Virus record (IMG/VR): IMGVR_UViG_3300046509_000089
Location: 1-23,193 of that record
Length of the DNA stretch: 23,193 bases
Strand: one strand, 5' to 3'
Origin: a virus
A model generated the notes under the pieces. That model was not told the origin of the DNA and ran no database searches. It worked only from the letters and a program-made list of their open reading frames with translations. Below, in pieces: positions 1,173 through 23,193 of the stretch; within the stretch, counting starts at the first letter, position 1, and each line of letters starts with the position of its first letter. A program made the position numbers and the translations under genes.

Positions 1173-3587
1173 TTATGGCATTAAAATCTCTTTAATTGAG
1201 ATATTATCTAATGTATAGGAGGTACAACCATTTACAAGATTATATCCATTAATTTGAAGGAAATTAGTTGTAGAGTGTAGACAGGTGATATTAGCAGTAT
1301 AATGCCCATCTGTATTTCTGAAAACATCTCCAAATATTTGTAATCCGGCGTTACTATATACCAGCATAGTATTCTGAGTCCCCTCACTGCCTGTAACTTT
1401 ATTAACATCCCAACTAATTTTATATGTTTTCCCTTCCGTTAGATTAACACCAGCAGTGATTAGCGCAGAAATAACATCATTAGTATGAGTTGCAACACCA
1501 TTGGCAATACTCCAACCACCATCAGGAGCAGACCACCCAGCCCCGCTATCAAAAGTACCATTGGTAACATTTTCAGCTCCAAGCATTGCAATTGAAACCT
1601 CTGCTGTATATTCTGAAAACAATCCGTCTCTTTTAGCCCTAATCTTGTAATACCTTAAATCAACCGGAGTAACTGCTTCACTTTTAGTCACTGTTCCCGC
1701 TGCTATTGTATATAATAATGAATATGTCCCATTATCACTCTTACCATAAATTTCTGTTTCAGAAGTAGCTGCGTTTTTATCAGTCCAATCTATTTTAACA
1801 CCCCCAGAAATTAAAGTAAGTGCCAAGTTTGTTGGTAAAAGAGGAGCAATATCATCTATATCAAGTAATTCCAATGAAAGGTTACTAATATCGAATGGTA
1901 AACCTCCTAATGTATTGCCCGAAGCCTGTAATTCGAACCATGATGGATGTTCAGTGCCAGTACAAACTAAAGTTTCATCATAACTACCATTGCCTCTCAA
2001 TTGCGTACCATAATATCCATCATCAAAATAACCACACCCATTACCACTAAACCATATTGGAGTTTGACCTGAACAATTACTTATCGTATATTTTAATCTA
2101 TACCTCTTGCCAATGATAAGATCAACAGGAGTTATTTGCCTTATTACTCCTGTTCCAGTAGTCGGACAAATAGCATTAAAATGAGTTTTGCCATTAACCA
2201 CACTCCATCCCTCAGCCTCCCATCCTTCCCAAACAAAACTCCAAGGATATTGATATGCACTAGAAAACACGCCATTGATTAATAAATCACTATAATTTAA
2301 TCCATTACAATATGTCAATATTTTAGTGAGATCATTACCTGTTTTCTTGGTATTATAACTAAATAATTCCAATAATGGAGTACCATAATTTTGTAAAGAA
2401 GCTGTGTATTTAACAAAAAAACATCCCCTGTAATCTGTATTGGCCCATTCAAATAATCGAATCTGAATCAATTCCGAAGAATGCCAATCTTTCGGATTAC
2501 TGGCGTCATAATAACCAGCCCTTGCTAAACTATTCCATATTGTAGTATTAGACCTATCCCACATCGAACCTACCATTCGAATCATACAGTCATATCTGTT
2601 CAAATTATTCGTGTTTCCTGTATCGGAATATACTTTTGTATAGGTTGCAGGTACGTAAACGTCACTACCAGAATTGCTTTTAGGTATATCAAGATCAGGA
2701 ACATAAGATTTTGAATACCTGCTAAACCCTCCATTTATTCCACTTAATGACCCATAAACACCTTTCTCTAATCCACTATATTCAGTAGCAATGTGACGTA
2801 ACCCCTCTATATCTGCCATTACATTACTACCATTCGGCAAACTAATAGGAACCCAGTGAGCAAAACAATTACTCACAGATACATTATTATATAAATTAAG
2901 CGCCTCAACATCATTTAAACACCTATTATACCAATATATATCTCCAACACTAATAGGTGCTTTATGATCCGCTCCGTTTGCTTCTCTAGCAAGAGTTAAG
3001 TTTTTATTATCTCCAAACAGAGACCAATCACCTACATAATTAGCAATAAGATTTTGTAGAACTCCATCTACATTTAATGACATTGTTTTTGCAACATTGT
3101 CAATTCTTACCAATACAAAATGCCAATTCAAGTCCTGAATATCATCGTTAGATGCACACCATCCGCTTCCATTATAATCAACTCTATCTGTACCAAAAGA
3201 TACTTTACCAGTATTTCCAATACATAACAAAGTGTAGTTTCCATCCCAATAAAATTTACCAAATAAATGATATAGACCCCATCCAGTGTTCGCCCTTACA
3301 ACTGATTCAACTTTAAACCACATTCCAATTGTACAACCAGTATTTTTTACATCAAAAGAATGGTCTGTGTCATAATAAATTCCCATACCATTTGGGAATA
3401 ATCTCTTTGACCAATAATTATTTAATATCAAACTATCATTGTTTCCTATAGAATCAATCAAAGAAGAACCCACTCTCTCCTTACTCCAAAAATTTGGCAA
3501 CTCTCCTCCAATTGTTATTTGTGGAGTCCAGAAAGATTCTGCTCCGGAGTTGTATAAATTTACCAGGTTTAGCCTATTGAGTCTCAT
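1173..3587 (-). CDS. tail fibre/adhesin with LamG, Fn3 and jelly-roll domains
   Basis: 804 residues, probably the receptor- or glycan-binding tail fibre. The N-terminal 60 residues (NLVNLYNSGAESFW) may be the attachment part. Residues about 75-235 form a LamG/concanavalin-like domain: GMWFKVES, NWHFVLVRID, MSLNVDGVLQN, and the closing ISVGDIYWYNRCLNDVE strand typical of Laminin_G_3. A tryptophan-rich beta region follows. Residues about 450-580 look like a CBM4/9-type jelly roll, about 585-665 is a fibronectin type III domain (PTNLALT, IDWTD, YYKIRAKRDG), and about 667-804 is a second jelly roll resembling the first. The gene is visibly more AT-rich than the capsid and tail genes, as expected for an exchangeable adhesin module. 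No C-type-lectin variable region is recognisable at its 3' end. It starts with ATG at 3587, 16 bases after the preceding stop. Confidence 0.7.
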   Translation of the reverse strand: MRLNRLNLVNLYNSGAESFWTPQITIGGELPNFWSKERVGSSLIDSIGNNDSLILNNYWSKRLFPNGMGIYYDTDHSFDVKNTGCTIGMWFKVESVVRANTGWGLYHLFGKFYWDGNYTLLCIGNTGKVSFGTDRVDYNGSGWCASNDDIQDLNWHFVLVRIDNVAKTMSLNVDGVLQNLIANYVGDWSLFGDNKNLTLAREANGADHKAPISVGDIYWYNRCLNDVEALNLYNNVSVSNCFAHWVPISLPNGSNVMADIEGLRHIATEYSGLEKGVYGSLSGINGGFSRYSKSYVPDLDIPKSNSGSDVYVPATYTKVYSDTGNTNNLNRYDCMIRMVGSMWDRSNTTIWNSLARAGYYDASNPKDWHSSELIQIRLFEWANTDYRGCFFVKYTASLQNYGTPLLELFSYNTKKTGNDLTKILTYCNGLNYSDLLINGVFSSAYQYPWSFVWEGWEAEGWSVVNGKTHFNAICPTTGTGVIRQITPVDLIIGKRYRLKYTISNCSGQTPIWFSGNGCGYFDDGYYGTQLRGNGSYDETLVCTGTEHPSWFELQASGNTLGGLPFDISNLSLELLDIDDIAPLLPTNLALTLISGGVKIDWTDKNAATSETEIYGKSDNGTYSLLYTIAAGTVTKSEAVTPVDLRYYKIRAKRDGLFSEYTAEVSIAMLGAENVTNGTFDSGAGWSAPDGGWSIANGVATHTNDVISALITAGVNLTEGKTYKISWDVNKVTGSEGTQNTMLVYSNAGLQIFGDVFRNTDGHYTANITCLHSTTNFLQINGYNLVNGCTSYTLDNISIKEILMP

Positions 3588-7598: not shown

Positions 7599-8248
7599 AT
7601 GAGTGTTGCCCCGGTTGTAACTCCGGAGATGTCTTCAATTACGCCTGTTATGATTATATAATATGTTCCTGCAGTAGAGTAGGTGTGCGAAACGGTTCCC
7701 GATCCGGTTACCACATCGAAAGCATGACTGCCATCACCATAATAGATATTAACCGGCTCTGCAGTGGTTATTGCAAAGCTTACAGTCATTGCGCCGGTTG
7801 CTGCCACAAACTTATATACCCTTTTAACCGGCTCCGGTTCTCTCAGCTTCATCGAGAAGGTCCCGATCATGAGAGATGCGTTCCATTTCTTTTTCACATC
7901 AAAATCATCATGCAGGTAAACTTCATAAACGAGAGGCTTCCTGGTAACCACGCCATCATCCACTTCAATCATAAGCCTCTGGAGTCCGCTTTTCTGAAAA
8001 GCAGCCAGGAAAGCCTGTACTGCAAGAATAAACGCTGTTGAACTTGCAGCCTTAATAAAACAATCGAGGGTAATTTCCCTGGTCTCATACCTGGGCGCTG
8101 CCAGATCAACAACCTCTCCATGGTGATCGGGCCATGTTACCTTTTGTGGATCTCTCATCTTCAGAGCGGCTAATAAACCTGTCGAACCTGATACCTTAAC
8201 ACCCAAAGTTTTGAAGTCAACACCGTTTATATAGTAATATACTTTCAT
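7583..8248 (-). CDS. distal tail protein (Dit-like) with PKD-like C-terminus
   Basis: 221 residues. The N-terminal 140 residues match the shape of Dit/tail-ring proteins: YYYINGVDFKTLGVKVSGS, a charged loop (TWPDHHGEVVDLAAPRYETREITL), a helix with AVQAFLAAF, then QRLMIEVDD and the strand ending FSMKLREPEPVKRVYKF. Residues about 150-205 add a PKD-like beta domain (NIYYGDGSHAFDVV, SHTYSTAGTYYIIITG), which could bind carbohydrate or decorate the tail tip. Its position between tape measure and tail tip protein is exactly where Dit is found in siphophages. It starts with an ATGA overlap with the tape measure stop and overlaps the next gene, so the three are translationally coupled. Confidence 0.75.
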   Translation of the reverse strand: MKVYYYINGVDFKTLGVKVSGSTGLLAALKMRDPQKVTWPDHHGEVVDLAAPRYETREITLDCFIKAASSTAFILAVQAFLAAFQKSGLQRLMIEVDDGVVTRKPLVYEVYLHDDFDVKKKWNASLMIGTFSMKLREPEPVKRVYKFVAATGAMTVSFAITTAEPVNIYYGDGSHAFDVVTGSGTVSHTYSTAGTYYIIITGVIEDISGVTTGATLIWSRL

Positions 8249-10623
8249 GCTATTCCCTGAGGTCTTAGTGAGTTATCTTTTAAGGCATCAAGTTTATTGT
8301 CAATGCTTTCAAGATGTTTATTGTAACGCGTATTTGCGGCAATTTCCGCCATATGTAAAAGCTGCTGTCGCATTATTGAACTAGTATCTGCAACATTGAT
8401 TCTTATGGCATTCATTTGCCCTGCAAGTACGCTGGCAGTCTCTTCGGTAATACCTTTAATGGATCCTTGTAAAGATGTGTTGTTAGCGACCGTTTGTTCG
8501 CCGGAATATAGTCCCTGATTCATCGCATCCCAATAGGGTTTCATGTCGGCTGCCATATCTGCACCCATCTGATCGATTTTAGCCTTTTCTTCCGGAGTTA
8601 ATACTTTATCAGATAACGCTTCTCTGATATAATCAATATAGGCTTCCATTGCCGGGCTACTGAGGATCTGTTGTTTGAAGATTTCCACAATCGCATTCTT
8701 CAAAACATCATTCATGTAACTGGCAAAGTCATCTACACTTGTCTTTCCATCCTGAAATCCTTGTGCAATGGCATCAGCAATGGAATTTTCGGTTATCCCG
8801 CCTGCTAAAGCGTCTTTTAATTCCTGCTCATATTTTGGAATTTCTAACGTTAAATCTCTAATTTGATCTAAAAGTTCTTTTTGTCTTTTTTTATCATTAA
8901 CATTTGTTTGTCCGTATAATTCCCATAACTCTGCTAGTCGCTTTTTTGCGTTCTCAAGTTGCAGTTCAAGATTTGGCACTAGTCCTCCATGCCTTTGTGA
9001 TTCGTCTACAAGCCTATTATAATCTTCAAGAGATTTATTTATAGCGTCAATTTGAGATTGAAATTTTTCAGCTTCATTTGGGATTAAAGAGATTAATCCT
9101 GAAAGAAGAGAGAATGCTGCACCAATGTAATTACCAGTAGCCAACTGGGTGAAAGTGTTTAACATAGATCCCATTATCTTCTGATCCTCTTCACTAAGAC
9201 CTACTTGTTGCGCAAGTTCGAGAGTAAGTTGCGTTGCCGCTTCTAGTATCTCTTTTTGATTTTTCTTCTTTTTTTCATCATATTCAAGATCATCTTTTTC
9301 CCCTTTTTCCCTGTTCTTTTTTTGCTTTGCCATTGCTTCATCTGTAAGCATTGCAGTACCGGGAATATATTTTGATATTTCTGATGTCACCGGAGCACCG
9401 GCTAAAGTAGAAGTAGGTCTAGTTGATAGCACTGGAACGCCTGGGAGATGAGTGATTATTGGAATAACGCCACCTGCATCTGCCAAAATTGCTGCCTTGG
9501 CTATATTAATCCTGATATCGAGTTCCTTTTGTAGTACATCAATTCTGTTTTTGATCCTTATAACTTCAGCAGTATTTCCATCCTCTGCAGCTTTCTGAAA
9601 TAATTTCTCCTGTTCCGCAATTGAGTTATTAATCTCTATTTGTTCATCGGCAAGTTTCTGAAGGTTCTTATGCAGATCCTCTCTCCATTTTATCTCTTCG
9701 TCAATTCCTTCCTTAATAAGTATGGATCTCTGCCTTACAAGCCTTTTTGTTGATTGGAATCTTTCAGCCTCTAAGTTTTCGAGTTCAACATAGAGTGCTG
9801 AAAGTTGCTTCAGATATTTTTCGCTTCCCGGCTGGTTCATCAGAGCCTCATCAGTTGCTTCAATCGACTTCCTGACGTGTTCCTGCTGTATATCAATAGA
9901 ATCGTTGTGAGCTTTAAGAGCCTTATCTATGGTCGCTATTTTATCTGCACGCGAAAGAGTCGCATCAAGCGATTCGGCGTAGAGCTGTTGATATTCATTA
10001 TTTAATTTGGCTGATTTTACTGAGTCAACATATTCCTCTGTTCTGAGTGCATTGAATTTCTTCTGGACTTCTATGGCTCCCATGATATTGTCAGAAAATG
10101 ACATTGCCCCGGATGCGATATTATAAAGCATCTGTTGGGTAATCGCACCCAAAACATTAAAGGCATTTAAGCCACCGGTTGTCTCCAGTAGAGCTTTTTT
10201 AAGAAGTCCAAGAAAATAAGCTGCCCCGCCAAGACTCAAAGCCCATTTACTAATATTAGCTGAGAGTGATTCCACGCTTTTCCCTTCAGCACTGTTTACT
10301 TCAATCTGTTCTCTCTGGAGCCTTATCAAATCGCTCTGCGCTTCAGCTAATCTTCTTTTTGCCTGCCCAAGCTCTGTTCCTATATTATTCTTTTTACTGC
10401 CTGCAGTTGCATTATCAAAAGCCTTTTGCATTTCTTTAATCTCTGCAGTCAGCCCTTTAATGAAGTCTTTCTGAGATTGAATTTCCTGCTTAAAATTTGT
10501 TGTATTCTTTCTTACCGATGCACCAACGTCATCCAGTGAACCCTTCAGCTTTTTAGCCTGTTCATCAGCCTGCTTATCGAGCAGAAATTCAATTTCTATG
10601 GGTCCTAGTTTATCGGCAGACAT
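8245..10623 (-). CDS. tail tape measure protein
   Basis: 792 residues. It sets tail length and is probably ejected into the host envelope. The sequence is mostly charged heptad-rich helix (residues about 15-110 and 195-375) interrupted by hydrophobic patches: about 127-175 (LSLGGAAYFLGLLKKALL) and about 485-515 (GNYIGAAFSLLSGLISLIP). A lysine-rich linker (KQKKNREKGEKDDLEYDEKKKK) lies around residue 440. At roughly 1.5 angstrom per residue, the usual rule for these proteins, it predicts a tail of about 120 nm. Position directly after the G/GT chaperone pair and before Dit confirms it. The ATG at 10623 is two bases after the GT stop, and its TGA overlaps the next ATG. Confidence 0.9.
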   Translation of the reverse strand: MSADKLGPIEIEFLLDKQADEQAKKLKGSLDDVGASVRKNTTNFKQEIQSQKDFIKGLTAEIKEMQKAFDNATAGSKKNNIGTELGQAKRRLAEAQSDLIRLQREQIEVNSAEGKSVESLSANISKWALSLGGAAYFLGLLKKALLETTGGLNAFNVLGAITQQMLYNIASGAMSFSDNIMGAIEVQKKFNALRTEEYVDSVKSAKLNNEYQQLYAESLDATLSRADKIATIDKALKAHNDSIDIQQEHVRKSIEATDEALMNQPGSEKYLKQLSALYVELENLEAERFQSTKRLVRQRSILIKEGIDEEIKWREDLHKNLQKLADEQIEINNSIAEQEKLFQKAAEDGNTAEVIRIKNRIDVLQKELDIRINIAKAAILADAGGVIPIITHLPGVPVLSTRPTSTLAGAPVTSEISKYIPGTAMLTDEAMAKQKKNREKGEKDDLEYDEKKKKNQKEILEAATQLTLELAQQVGLSEEDQKIMGSMLNTFTQLATGNYIGAAFSLLSGLISLIPNEAEKFQSQIDAINKSLEDYNRLVDESQRHGGLVPNLELQLENAKKRLAELWELYGQTNVNDKKRQKELLDQIRDLTLEIPKYEQELKDALAGGITENSIADAIAQGFQDGKTSVDDFASYMNDVLKNAIVEIFKQQILSSPAMEAYIDYIREALSDKVLTPEEKAKIDQMGADMAADMKPYWDAMNQGLYSGEQTVANNTSLQGSIKGITEETASVLAGQMNAIRINVADTSSIMRQQLLHMAEIAANTRYNKHLESIDNKLDALKDNSLRPQGIA

Positions 10624-17567: not shown

Positions 17568-20108
17568 ATGGCAACCATCAAAACTAAGTCAAAAGATAAA
17601 AAGAGTCTTGTTGTCAATACTCTTGTCATCCGGAAACTGAACCGGAGTGTACTCGACGTCGGTCTGTGGAGGCTGGCCCTGAAAGCTGCTGATAACGATC
17701 GGAGGCAAAAGCTTTATGAGATGTATGAAGATATACTTCTCGACCCGGTTCTTTCAAATGCTATCGATAAAAGGATTAACGCCATCACAAATGCCGACCT
17801 GGTATTCATGAAAGATGAACAGATCGTTGAAGATATCGACGATCTTATCGATAGCCCGGTGATGGAAGAGATCCTTACCGAGATAATGAATTCTAAGTTC
17901 TGGGGAAAGACAGTACTGGAACTCGACTTTGTAGATGGCCTGCAGGCTTTTAATATACCACGCCAGCATATTCGTCCAGAGAAAGGTATAATTACAATTA
18001 ATCCTGGCGACGAACAGGGAACTAACTATCGCGGCGATGACTTTTTCCTCGAGGCCGGAAAGGATAAAGATTTCGGTCTGCTTCTTAAAGCTGCTCCATA
18101 TGCTATTTTTAAACGTGGAGGAATAAGCGATTGGGCTCAGTTCTGTGAACTCTTCGGGATCCCGTATAAGGTAGGTAAGTTCAGCGCCCAGGATGAAGAG
18201 AGCAAAAAAGCCTTAATGGAAGCTTTTGAGGATTCAGGATCCGCCAGCTGGATTGTTGCTCCAAAGGAAACCGAAATAGATCTGAAGGAAACATCGACAA
18301 GGGGTGATGGGAACCTGTTCAATAACTTCCGTAAATCCTGTAACGAGGAGATGCTCATCTCAATCCTGGGACAGACCATGACTACTACCGACGGCTCATC
18401 GAGGGCACAGAGCCAAGTTCATAAAGATGTCGAGGAGGATGTAAATAAGTCAGACAGAAGATTTGTCCAGAGGATCCTTAATACAGAGCTGCTCCCAAGA
18501 CTCGAAAAGAGAGGTTTCCCTGTAAGCGGTGGCTGGTTTAGTTTCCCTGATGCTGCAGAAACGATTTCACAAAAGGACAAGATAGAAATATTCGATATCT
18601 TCCAAAACAAACTTAGCCTCCCGATCGGCGAAGACTTCCTTTATGATTATTTCGGGATCCCGAAACCTAAACCAGGAGAGGTTACAAAACCGGCTCCAAA
18701 AAATGAACCCACGGTACCGGATCCTAAGAAGAAAAAAAAGGAAGAAAAGAAATCATTAACCGATAACCTGGCTGAAGCTGAAGCTACATTCTGGACTAAA
18801 CTCAAGGAAGGAATAGCAAGTTTTTTCGTATTAGCCCCCTTCAGGGGGGCAGCAAGGTCAGGTGGAGATCGCCTCACGGATCTTAACCTGGCAGATCTTC
18901 CGGCATTCGATTCAGAGGCACTGGCCCGGCGTGTAAGTGAAGGATCTGATTACTTCGATCCCGAACTTTTCTACTATACATCAAATGCTCTGCTAAAGGC
19001 TTTGCATACCGGGTTTGTTCAAAAGAACTTTGCTTCCCTTGGTATTGAATACGGTTTTACTCCCGATGCCTATAAGACAGCAATGGAGATTAATCTCTTT
19101 CACTTCAGTGCAGCAAAGAATCTGGCAGAAATTCAGAAACTCAATGAAGCATTCAGGGCATCAACCGGGTGGAGCGATTTTTTAAATAAAGCACGTCAGA
19201 TTTCAGGGGAGTTCAACGAGACTTGGCTCAGATCCGAATACGATACTGCTTATCTAACTGCGGAGAGTAGTGCTAATTATTTCAGCCTTTTATCTATAAA
19301 AGATGTTTATCCATTCTGGCAATATATAACTGTTAACGATGGCAAGGTAAGAGAAGAACACCTTAAGATTCATGGACTGGTTCTACTGGCAACCGACAGA
19401 TTATGGGATAAGATCTGGCCTCCAAACGGATGGAATTGCCGTTGCAGGGTTGTTCCTTTAATTAAATCCCAGGCTGCAGGAATTGACCTGGCTAAAGAAC
19501 ATGCCAGGGTAGAAGAATTTTTCAAGACTGCTGAATGGAAGAAATCGGCTGCCCAGGGTTTCGGTGTTAACAGGGCTCTCACTGGCAATGTCTTTGAAGC
19601 AAACCAGATGTATATCCGGAAGTTCCCCACCAAAGCAGCTTCGTACCTCGATAAGCTTACTGCAGAAAAATGGGGACTCGACAATATTGCAAAACTCATG
19701 TCTGCAGCTAAATCAGAGATCACTGCTTTTGCGCGTACCTCTTCAGATATCTGGAAGGAGCAAAGTAAAAACGGTCTCCTGGATCTCGACCTTTATAACG
19801 ATCGTAAAATTGCAATGTCTGAGAAAGACTTTAAAAAGCTGGTCGCAAAAACGGGCCGGTTGAAATTATGGAATGCCCTGAAAGAAACCCTTATTAATCC
19901 CGACGAAATATGGCTAAATGACGATGGATCGTCGCTATTCGACAATTTCAGCCTTATCAGGTATTACAAAGAAACTGCGGTTGTGACGAATTATAAAGTT
20001 GAAAAAGGGAAGATGGTACTGAAACTTTGGGAAGAAATGAAACCGGCTAAAGCAATCCGCGACACTAAGAGAAGGGGTCTTCTGATAATCAAAAATGGCA
20101 ACATTTAA
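17568..20108 (+). CDS. portal (DUF935) - Mu F minor head - nuclease-like (PBECR/toxin) fusion
   Basis: 846 residues, one continuous frame, combining three parts usually encoded by two genes. Residues about 1-375 are a Mu gp29-like DUF935 portal (YEMYEDILLDPVLSNAIDKR, SKFWGKTVLELDF, PYAIFKRGGISDWAQFCELFG, GQTMTTTDGSSRAQSQVH, FPDAAETIS). A Lys/Pro linker follows (about 365-400), containing a REP-like palindrome. Residues about 450-640 are a Mu F/SPP1 gp7-type minor head domain (YPFWQYITVNDGKVREEH, LKIHGLVL, WPPNGWNCRCRVVPL). Residues about 715-846 (NPDEIWLNDDG, SLIRYYKETAVVTNYKV, RRGLLIIKN) resemble the BECR-fold nucleases (PBECR) appended to MuF proteins. The last 14 bases overlap the next gene. 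If real, the C-terminal domain would ride in the head with the portal and enter the host with DNA. Confidence 0.82.
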   Translation: MATIKTKSKDKKSLVVNTLVIRKLNRSVLDVGLWRLALKAADNDRRQKLYEMYEDILLDPVLSNAIDKRINAITNADLVFMKDEQIVEDIDDLIDSPVMEEILTEIMNSKFWGKTVLELDFVDGLQAFNIPRQHIRPEKGIITINPGDEQGTNYRGDDFFLEAGKDKDFGLLLKAAPYAIFKRGGISDWAQFCELFGIPYKVGKFSAQDEESKKALMEAFEDSGSASWIVAPKETEIDLKETSTRGDGNLFNNFRKSCNEEMLISILGQTMTTTDGSSRAQSQVHKDVEEDVNKSDRRFVQRILNTELLPRLEKRGFPVSGGWFSFPDAAETISQKDKIEIFDIFQNKLSLPIGEDFLYDYFGIPKPKPGEVTKPAPKNEPTVPDPKKKKKEEKKSLTDNLAEAEATFWTKLKEGIASFFVLAPFRGAARSGGDRLTDLNLADLPAFDSEALARRVSEGSDYFDPELFYYTSNALLKALHTGFVQKNFASLGIEYGFTPDAYKTAMEINLFHFSAAKNLAEIQKLNEAFRASTGWSDFLNKARQISGEFNETWLRSEYDTAYLTAESSANYFSLLSIKDVYPFWQYITVNDGKVREEHLKIHGLVLLATDRLWDKIWPPNGWNCRCRVVPLIKSQAAGIDLAKEHARVEEFFKTAEWKKSAAQGFGVNRALTGNVFEANQMYIRKFPTKAASYLDKLTAEKWGLDNIAKLMSAAKSEITAFARTSSDIWKEQSKNGLLDLDLYNDRKIAMSEKDFKKLVAKTGRLKLWNALKETLINPDEIWLNDDGSSLFDNFSLIRYYKETAVVTNYKVEKGKMVLKLWEEMKPAKAIRDTKRRGLLIIKNGNI
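18834..18850. repeat. REP-like GC-rich palindrome inside the fusion gene linker
   Basis: GCCCCCTTCAGGGGGGC, a nearly perfect GC-rich inverted repeat (one extra G) in an otherwise moderately AT-rich gene. It encodes APFRG residues of the linker between portal and Mu F domains. The CCCCCTTCAGGGGG core resembles short interspersed palindromes I know from Bacteroidetes chromosomes; identity with a host repeat family cannot be tested here. Confidence 0.5.
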
Positions 20109-21457: not shown

Positions 21458-21892
21458 TTAGTTTTTATTAATCCCCCTTTGCTTGATAACTATTGTGCCA
21501 ACCGGGCAGTAATTCGATTTTACACTATGCCTGACCCGGATCCAGAGAGTAAGGGAAGCTCTGATCATCCTGTCGAGCTTTGTTATCTCATATTTTGCCT
21601 GGTCCTCAAGGGATCTGACTTTATTCCTTTGCCACCGGCCACGCTTAAGCCTCAGATAATTGATCCACTCCAGGGGAGTTAAGTCAGCCTTTTCATTATT
21701 ACAAGCGTTGCAGGATCTTACCTTGAGTCGGCCTCCGAGCGACTTCGGATAAAAATGGTCACCGTTTGTATGGCCTTCAGCCCCGCAATACCAGCATTTA
21801 TATGGATTACCGAGGCTTCGCGCCTGAAAGACGTTTAATCTTCGTACAGGATCGACAAAATTGTCAATGCCTGGGCTATTTTCTTCTAACAT
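21458..21892 (-). CDS. HNH endonuclease
   Basis: 144 residues. The N-terminal half has the HNH zinc-finger core: CWYCG, then GDHFYPKSLGG with the catalytic Asp-His pair, then SCNACNNEKADLTPLEWINYL with the second Cys pair and the conserved Asn. This makes a metal-dependent nicking/cleaving enzyme. The C-terminal half is basic and helical (RLKRGRWQRNKV, LDRMIRASLTLWIRVRHS), likely DNA contact. HNH proteins near terminases often assist packaging, but here it is in the opposite-strand accessory block, so a homing or recombination role is also possible. It begins with ATG at 21892, three bases after the preceding gene's stop. Confidence 0.85.
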   Translation of the reverse strand: MLEENSPGIDNFVDPVRRLNVFQARSLGNPYKCWYCGAEGHTNGDHFYPKSLGGRLKVRSCNACNNEKADLTPLEWINYLRLKRGRWQRNKVRSLEDQAKYEITKLDRMIRASLTLWIRVRHSVKSNYCPVGTIVIKQRGINKN

Positions 21893-21895
21893 GAT

Positions 21896-22288
21896 TTATA
21901 ATTCAAAAATCGGAGCTCTGTCTTGAAGACCGGGGATTCCAATTCGTTGTAACCATTTTGGCCATACAAGATCCGGGTCCATAATTAATATTGGGATGTT
22001 TAGTTCCAAAGCCAGCTTTATTTCTGCTTCCATGCCATTTGAAATCCTGTGCCCAAAAACCCAAAGCTCATCAACCATTCTGCTTCCGAGAATAGCTATA
22101 TCATTATCTATACCTCTCTCACGTTCTTCCGGCTTATTGTCATCCATAGCAAGCAGATCTGCCAGGTAAGGCACAAACGGAACCACGTCGGGTTTGTTAA
22201 GGTTTATTTCCTTGACTATTTTCAATATTTTCTGAATGTTCCCGTAAACGTCTCCGGAAATAGGATGAACGATGTAGGCTATCCTCAT
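21896..22288 (-). CDS. nucleoside 2-deoxyribosyltransferase-like protein (DUF4406-type)
   Basis: 130 residues from the ATG at 22288. Rossmann-like: strand RIAYIVHPISGDVYGN, helix IQKILKIVKEI, then VVPFVPYLADLL, IDNDIAILGSRMVDELWVFG with the Asp pair, and SNGMEAEIKLALELNIPILI, where the Glu of MEAEI is in the place of the family's catalytic Glu. Such proteins probably hydrolyse or transfer nucleoside N-glycosidic bonds; in phages they may alter nucleotide pools or serve counter-defence (inference). An upstream ATG at 22327 would add 13 residues but overlap the preceding gene by 29 bases, so I prefer the ATG at the conserved first strand, preceded by an A-rich tract. Confidence 0.72.
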   Translation of the reverse strand: MRIAYIVHPISGDVYGNIQKILKIVKEINLNKPDVVPFVPYLADLLAMDDNKPEERERGIDNDIAILGSRMVDELWVFGHRISNGMEAEIKLALELNIPILIMDPDLVWPKWLQRIGIPGLQDRAPIFEL

Positions 22289-22298
22289 GTTTTTAATA

Positions 22299-22610
22299 TT
22301 AAGTGAATTTGTATCTTTTGTTGTCATTTATAATTATAGTATCGAATGGAAACTTATCTTTTGGCACTTTTTGAATAGCCTCCATTAGTGCTGAAGCTGC
22401 AGTAAAAACAACATATTTTTCCCCTTTTAAAGAGATCTGAAGATGCATAAATTTACCAGCTCCTCTTTCCTTAAATGCCTGTACCTTGGAATCTTCTATT
22501 TTAAAGTCATGAACTTGAATTTCCCGGTTAAAGATTCTTTCTATTCTGATCTTATCGCCATCAAAATATTTGGTGGTGGTTTCAATATTAAAATCACTGA
22601 ACTTGTTCAT
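22299..22610 (-). CDS. 103-residue partner gene of the reverse transcriptase, unknown function
   Basis: 103 residues, acidic/basic mixed and beta-rich, no membrane segment. Landmarks: FDGDKIRIERIFNREIQVHDFKIEDSKV, a MHLQISLKGEKYVVFTAAS strand, IQKVPKDKFPF and the terminal IINDNKRYKFT. I recall similar small proteins directly after reverse transcriptases of this type in Bacteroidetes elements. Its ATG lies 17 bases inside the RT gene, so the two are translationally coupled. It is not recognisable as Avd (which is a helical bundle) nor as an HRDC or MutS-like accessory. A nucleic-acid-binding role (OB-like) is possible but unproven. Confidence 0.6.
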   Translation of the reverse strand: MNKFSDFNIETTTKYFDGDKIRIERIFNREIQVHDFKIEDSKVQAFKERGAGKFMHLQISLKGEKYVVFTAASALMEAIQKVPKDKFPFDTIIINDNKRYKFT

Positions 22611-23193
22611 TTAATAACTTTTTAACTAGGTTTTTACTATTACAATGTTTTGCCCAACCCTTATAGGATGCGATGGACTGAGGATTTTTATTCCTGGCCA
22701 ACATCCTGGCAAAACTCTGTTTAATGCTTTTCCGCAGTAACACATGAGTGTGGAAGAATACATATCCGACAAAATCAATTCCACGGTCTTCAACCGGAAA
22801 GACCTGGTAATTATCTTTCACTTCAAGCTTAAGATTTTCCTGCAGGTATTCCCTGATTTCACAGAGAAGCTGATGCAGATAGGGTTTGTTGTCTGATAAA
22901 ATGACCATGTCATCAGCGTACCTGAAGTAATATTTCACCTTCTTTTCTTCCTTAATCCAGTGATCAAAGTATGTCAGATAGAAATTTGCAAAATACTGGC
23001 TGAGATAATTTCCGATCGGCAAACCTTCAGCACTATCGATAATGCCATCAAGCAGCCACAGGAGATCTGTATCTTTAATTTTCTTCCGGAGCAGCTGCTT
23101 CAAAACAGAGTGATCTACGCTTGGATAAAATTTTGTAATGTCGAGTTTAAGGCAGTACTGAGTCCCTGGAATATCTTTCAATGCTTTTAAAAC
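22594..23193 (-). CDS. reverse transcriptase, diversity-generating retroelement type (5' end outside window)
   Basis: The C-terminal 199 residues of a leftward RT; its start lies beyond the right edge, since the frame is open to the last base. Seen: motif A KLDITKFYPSVDHSVL with the first catalytic Asp, LPIGNYLSQ (22996-23022), which fits the [I/V/L]GxxxSQ form found in diversity-generating retroelement RTs instead of QGxxxSP, the catalytic YADD at 22909-22920 (YYFRYADDMVIL), then GIDFVGYVFFHTH, the basic LRKSIKQSFARML thumb segment and a SYKGWAKHCNSKNLVKKLL end. No intron-maturase X domain. RTs of this kind copy an RNA template repeat with adenine errors into a target gene. Neither template repeat nor variable repeat is in this window; they may lie to the right. 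Confidence 0.8.
   Translation of the reverse strand, partial: VLKALKDIPGTQYCLKLDITKFYPSVDHSVLKQLLRKKIKDTDLLWLLDGIIDSAEGLPIGNYLSQYFANFYLTYFDHWIKEEKKVKYYFRYADDMVILSDNKPYLHQLLCEIREYLQENLKLEVKDNYQVFPVEDRGIDFVGYVFFHTHVLLRKSIKQSFARMLARNKNPQSIASYKGWAKHCNSKNLVKKLLNEQVQ

Follow-up and report, generated by a model that had tools for sequence, protein, structure and literature searches.

A probable Bacteroidota-type diversity-generating retroelement at the end of a virus record, with a proposed phrog_19665 accessory in place of Avd

The 23,193 bases of DNA analysed here (the window) represent an entire virus record, and the right edge of the window is the end of that record. In our estimate, with a probability of about 85%, the window ends in a Bacteroidota-type phage diversity-generating retroelement (DGR), the template repeat (TR) and two target genes of which would lie past the edge, and which would use a protein of phrog_19665, a family of unknown function, instead of the protein Avd. 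What can be seen of this system is the C-terminal part of a reverse transcriptase (RT) and a small gene, the start of which overlaps the RT stop by 17 bases (Table 1). A previous sequence-only reading had recognized the RT correctly, together with its IGNYLSQ and YADD motifs, both of which are present, but had missed the 103-aa gene at the RT stop, from which most can be learned.

Table 1. Positions of the features considered in the window
Feature	Position	Strand	Basis or remark
DGR RT, C-terminal 199 residues	22594–23193	(-)	ORF open at right edge
IGNYLSQ, [I/V]GxxxSQ form of RT motif (residues 60–66)	22996–23016 (about)	(-)	sequence
Catalytic YADD of RT (residues 92–95)	22909–22920 (about)	(-)	sequence
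103-aa phrog_19665 protein, proposed DGR accessory in place of Avd	22299–22610	(-)	profile match, context
DUF7768 gene, after the accessory gene	21896–22327	(-)	PHROG match nucleoside 2-deoxyribosyltransferase
HNH gene, after the accessory gene	21458–21892	(-)	
846-aa ORF: Mu-type portal, MuF-like domain and PBECR2 nuclease-like domain	17568–20108	(+)	

Class of the reverse transcriptase

Residue 5 of the fragment aligns to residue 125 of the full-length RT of relative L082, with which the RT of the window is 87% identical; about 120 N-terminal codons are thus located beyond the edge. Matches were obtained to Pfam RVT_1 (1.3e-13) and to phrog_1423, annotated as "Reverse transcriptase" (2e-79), and the top sequence match in the PDB was 8ub7 (3.4e-26), which we take to be the DGR RT of Bordetella phage BPP-1. 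A maximum-likelihood tree was constructed from DGR, retron and group II RTs; in this tree, which has long branches at some deep joins, the DGR RTs formed a single clade (support 100/99) apart from retron and group II RTs, and the RT of the window grouped with that of L082 deep within this clade. The RT of the window is therefore a DGR-clade enzyme which carries both [I/V]GxxxSQ and YxDD.

That the RT might belong to a retron, a group II intron or a UG/DRT defence system appears exceedingly improbable. Weak matches of the RT domain to models of Drt3a, of retrons and of group II RTs do exist, but they amounted to 78 bits for Drt3a (curated cut-off 200) and 76 bits for group II (curated cut-off 300), and all matches to retron, group II and UG/DRT models were far below the curated cut-offs. 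Such an identity was rejected on these scores and on the tree of DGR, retron and group II RTs, where the latter two are set apart; Drt3a reference sequences for the tree were not found in the genomes searched. For the close relatives, a non-DGR RT is already refuted by their pairs of TR and variable repeat (VR), which are described below. The assignment to DGRs in the sequence-only reading, for which a position among retron or UG RTs had been named as the contrary outcome, is thus borne out by the clade, the match to 8ub7 and the adenine-only differences between TR and VR in relatives.

Repeats and target genes in relatives

Relatives of the RT were scanned at 80 virus loci (72–83% identity) and 80 genome loci (40–87%) with an adenine-directed repeat finder, of which T-, C- and G-directed versions served as controls. 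A TR/VR pair was detected in 147 of the 160 loci by the adenine-directed finder, and in 1, 0 and 21 loci by the T-, C- and G-directed versions, respectively; these counts, like those of the motif given below, are not independent, since the loci share ancestry. Loci with retron or group II RTs yielded no adenine-directed pair (0 of 16). A looser setting gave 287 pairs in 149 loci, in which 4203 of 4296 mismatches (97.8%) were at TR adenines, with adenine making up 27% of the TR.

The TR was found about 110 bases 5' of the RT start in relatives with enough upstream DNA, and usually two VRs were present about 190 and 600 bases further upstream of the TR; the DGR of L082 is complete. The VRs are usually near the C-termini of two adjacent small genes, encoding roughly 120–160 aa (phrog_11581). 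Genes of this target family occurred in all 39 virus records which were scanned whole, nearly always as two adjacent genes; relative L189 (G321:C21) has a single target-family ORF of 317 aa. As regards a C-type lectin fold of the targets, an AlphaFold model of one L082 target (mean pLDDT 80) is uncertain within the VR, some of which has values under 50, and no match in the PDB was obtained. Some loci contain a third target, which in a few of them (L004, L035, L114, L123) is kilobases away. In L002, the gene for an apparently secreted protein of 206 aa (7880–8500) immediately precedes both target genes on their upstream side; judged by eye only, the C-terminus of this protein is like a type IX secretion sorting tail. 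A second TR/VR pair, with 14 of 14 mismatches at A, is present in L053 (10611–12102) between the RT and the phrog_19665 gene; its target is a phrog_5302 tail protein, and one RT possibly serves two templates there.

The ends of the two repeats differ. Of 211 pairs of relatives, 196 have CGCCTTTGC as the VR nonamer, and the TR nonamer is never identical to it, at least 2 differences being found in all of the 211 pairs showing the motif. The codons for Arg and Leu at the VR end are nearly fixed (CGC in 121 of 125, CTT in 115 of 125), and the RT genes use all codons. When pairs were anchored on TR CACCTATGC, the middle adenines were free to vary and the terminal ones were fixed to one base; the synonymous change from CTA to CTT was present in 77 of 77 pairs. 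This difference looks like the IMH/IMH* asymmetry, which is known from BPP-1 (PMC3240598). A further peculiarity concerns columns -54 and -60/-61 of the TR (relatives L002–L081), where adenines in the 5' part of the TR nearly always correspond to G in the VR and where the A is nevertheless kept in the TR of many lineages; the near-constant G could be due to protein selection or to a homing boundary.

Within the 23,193 bases of the window, no adenine-biased repeat pair was found by the repeat finder. Searches with TR and VR profiles of relatives gave best E values of 0.76 and 12, respectively (a positive control worked), the target-protein profile gave a best E of 57, and CGCCTTTGC is absent from the window. 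A VR elsewhere in the window, also in the tail adhesin of 804 aa at 1173–3587, was rejected on these scans for repeats, TR/VR profiles and target profiles. Since the window is devoid of TR, VR and target, these are predicted, by analogy with the layout in relatives, to be situated within about 1.2 kb past the edge. The sequence-only reading had expected a target outside the window and had considered the adhesin unlikely, and neither a VR nor a target match was found in the latter; a TR beside the RT start, also expected, is the arrangement in relatives, and an absence of adenine-biased pairs near the RT, named as the contrary outcome, was not observed there. The reach of 3 kb to the right which had been suggested can be reduced to about 1.2 kb, and instead of FISUMP-type tail lectins, two small adjacent proteins with a VR near the C-terminus are usual in close relatives.

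The phrog_19665 protein and Avd

A phrog_19665-type family was found with 162 of the 183 DGR RTs examined. The gene overlapped the RT or followed it within 60 bases on the 3' side in 133 cases, was further 3' in 14 and upstream in 9; in 6 cases it was fused to the RT, including the 435-aa RT of hankyphage p00, where the domain comprises residues 328–423 (two profiles, 2.2e-10 and 4.5e-11). The family was not found with 21 of the 183 RTs, in 3 of which sequence is missing. Upstream copies are located between target and TR, which is the position of Avd in BPP-1. Direct profile comparison between the 3' family and the family at the Avd position is weak (E 0.0019); they are considered one family here, because both are contained in phrog_19665 and bridging proteins are matched by both profiles. 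The homologue in ANMV-1, AJP62065.1, was recognized with hhalign (99.2%, 6e-20) directly 3' of its RT. With the A1 profile, 44 matches were obtained in 49 whole genomes, which had been chosen for their DGRs; all adjoined a DGR RT, one being a broken remnant. An even draw of 295 Bacteroidia genomes yielded 5 matches, each of which was located next to a DGR RT or fused with one. No phrog_19665 gene was found with the close RT of L189 (67% identity), and neither phrog_19665 nor Avd with other, more distant RTs. Two candidate proteins were discarded: the cr55_1 (crAss) protein downstream of the RT was not supported as a homologue, and hankyphage ORF 40044–40529 is neither Avd nor phrog_19665, being DUF4376/phrog_19239.

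Classical DGR RTs work with Avd, which is described as essential for retrohoming. In the window, no bAvd (PF22296) was found; the usual position of Avd falls beyond the edge. Of 45 virus records, 42 had no bAvd; the other three are BPP-1, included as the positive control, and two phages in which bAvd belongs to a second, Avd-type DGR at another place in the genome. The RTs of BPP-1, L159, L181 and L182 have Avd and no phrog_19665, and the two proteins are mutually exclusive when each RT is considered by itself. The records of L037 and L041 (L201 and L202) contain two DGRs each, one of the phrog_19665 type with small targets and a separate one of the Avd type; the VR of the latter is at the end of an ORF of 755 aa in L201. 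The small targets and these two phages suggest that some phages diversify a protein other than the receptor-binding one. The record of hankyphage p00 (L199) showed no bAvd match, and its RT carries the phrog_19665-type domain instead; Avd is listed among the hankyphage DGR components in the figure legend of one paper.

The model of the 103-aa protein of the window (mean pLDDT 90.8) has its strands and helix in an OB-like order. Foldseek gave nothing significant against the PDB; in a viral structure library the top matches were RT-annotated proteins (8e-7 and 9e-5), with weaker matches to the RT of a crAss-like phage and to proteins predicted to bind single-stranded DNA. On this weak structural evidence, it is moderately likely that the protein is a nucleic-acid-binding OB-like domain.

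The following mechanism is proposed. The RT would copy an RNA which contains the TR, just 5' of the RT, and would insert random bases wherever this template has an adenine; the VRs near the C-termini of the two small adjacent target genes would then be replaced by the cDNA. Copying would proceed only from TR to VR, because CGCCTTTGC ends the VR and is missing from the TR. The phrog_19665 protein would act in the stead of Avd, probably by binding RT, template RNA or cDNA, and would join RT and template RNA in a cDNA-making complex, as Avd does for the BPP-1 RT. Genomic association, fusion and predicted fold indicate that it is probably an accessory which replaces Avd.

It is unlikely that the DGR is as proposed and the 103-aa gene is simply a phage gene linked to it, which plays no part in retrohoming. 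Overlapping genes are frequent in phages, some DGR RTs of the clade, such as that of L189, are without phrog_19665, and the accessory role is deduced from association, fusion and predicted fold; however, every match in the whole-genome scans adjoins a DGR RT, the family occurs in phages which are not related to each other as well as in bacteria and in an archaeal virus, it shifts among Avd position, 3' position and fusion with the RT, and it shares no RT with Avd. A degenerate or inactive DGR, with the RT kept and TR or targets lost in the virus, is more improbable still. The record shows no TR or VR, and at least one relative (L183) is degenerate, but the RT fragment is intact and closely similar to that of L082 with its complete DGR, the accessory ORF is also intact, and nearly all relatives with available sequence have TR and VR. 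The preferred reading is thus a presumably active DGR, which continues just past the edge and uses phrog_19665 instead of Avd.

More tentatively, and with slightly more doubt than confidence, phrog_19665 could be considered an unrecognised accessory class which replaces Avd across a large lineage of Bacteroidota and archaeal-virus DGRs, either as a separate OB-like protein or as a C-terminal domain of the RT. If this is true, the same step is solved by DGRs in at least two unrelated ways. Avd has been called essential for retrohoming, yet a large DGR lineage appears to be without it, and with a role in DGRs, the so far functionless phrog_19665 family would become a component which can be tested. 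The DGR activity of the hankyphage was measured in Bacteroides thetaiotaomicron (PMC12135933). One more DGR-associated protein, without Pfam or CDD entry, was suggested by reference 12 of PMC10053308, according to that article. DGRs, two-target DGRs and DGRs of Bacteroidetes phages are already known. The reference 12 just mentioned is presumably Wu et al. 2018, and its DGR-associated protein, reportedly called CH1, may belong to the same family as phrog_19665. The Avd-replacing accessory may therefore be new, or it may be a protein already noted in the 2018 survey by Wu et al.

Comparison with known systems

The DGR of BPP-1 (mtd-avd-TR-brt) shares with the relatives of the window RT a DGR-clade RT, adenine-only TR/VR differences, a TR just 5' of the RT, a VR near the C-terminus of the target and a VR end which differs from the TR end (IMH/IMH*). 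BPP-1 possesses Avd and one large tail target, whereas in the relatives phrog_19665 is present, Avd does not occur beside the RT, and the targets are small and usually two in number. Bacteroides hankyphage p00 is comparable as a Mu-like Bacteroidota phage with a DGR and a phrog_19665-type domain, fused to its RT; it differs by a VR in a very large tail-region gene (31489–38226) and by a longer TR (116 bases). Phages of the crAss-like kind (cr55_1 and others) contain the closest annotated phage RTs, which are 48–57% identical to that of relative L002, but their targets are larger. No phrog_19665 gene was found in the cr55_1 stretch by sequence search, and a domain similar to the phrog_19665 protein was detected in the RT of cr7_1 by fold search. 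The archaeal virus ANMV-1 resembles the window in its phrog_19665-type homologue directly 3' of the RT; it differs by its archaeal host and by a large target, adtA, which is located between tail-fibre genes and the RT.
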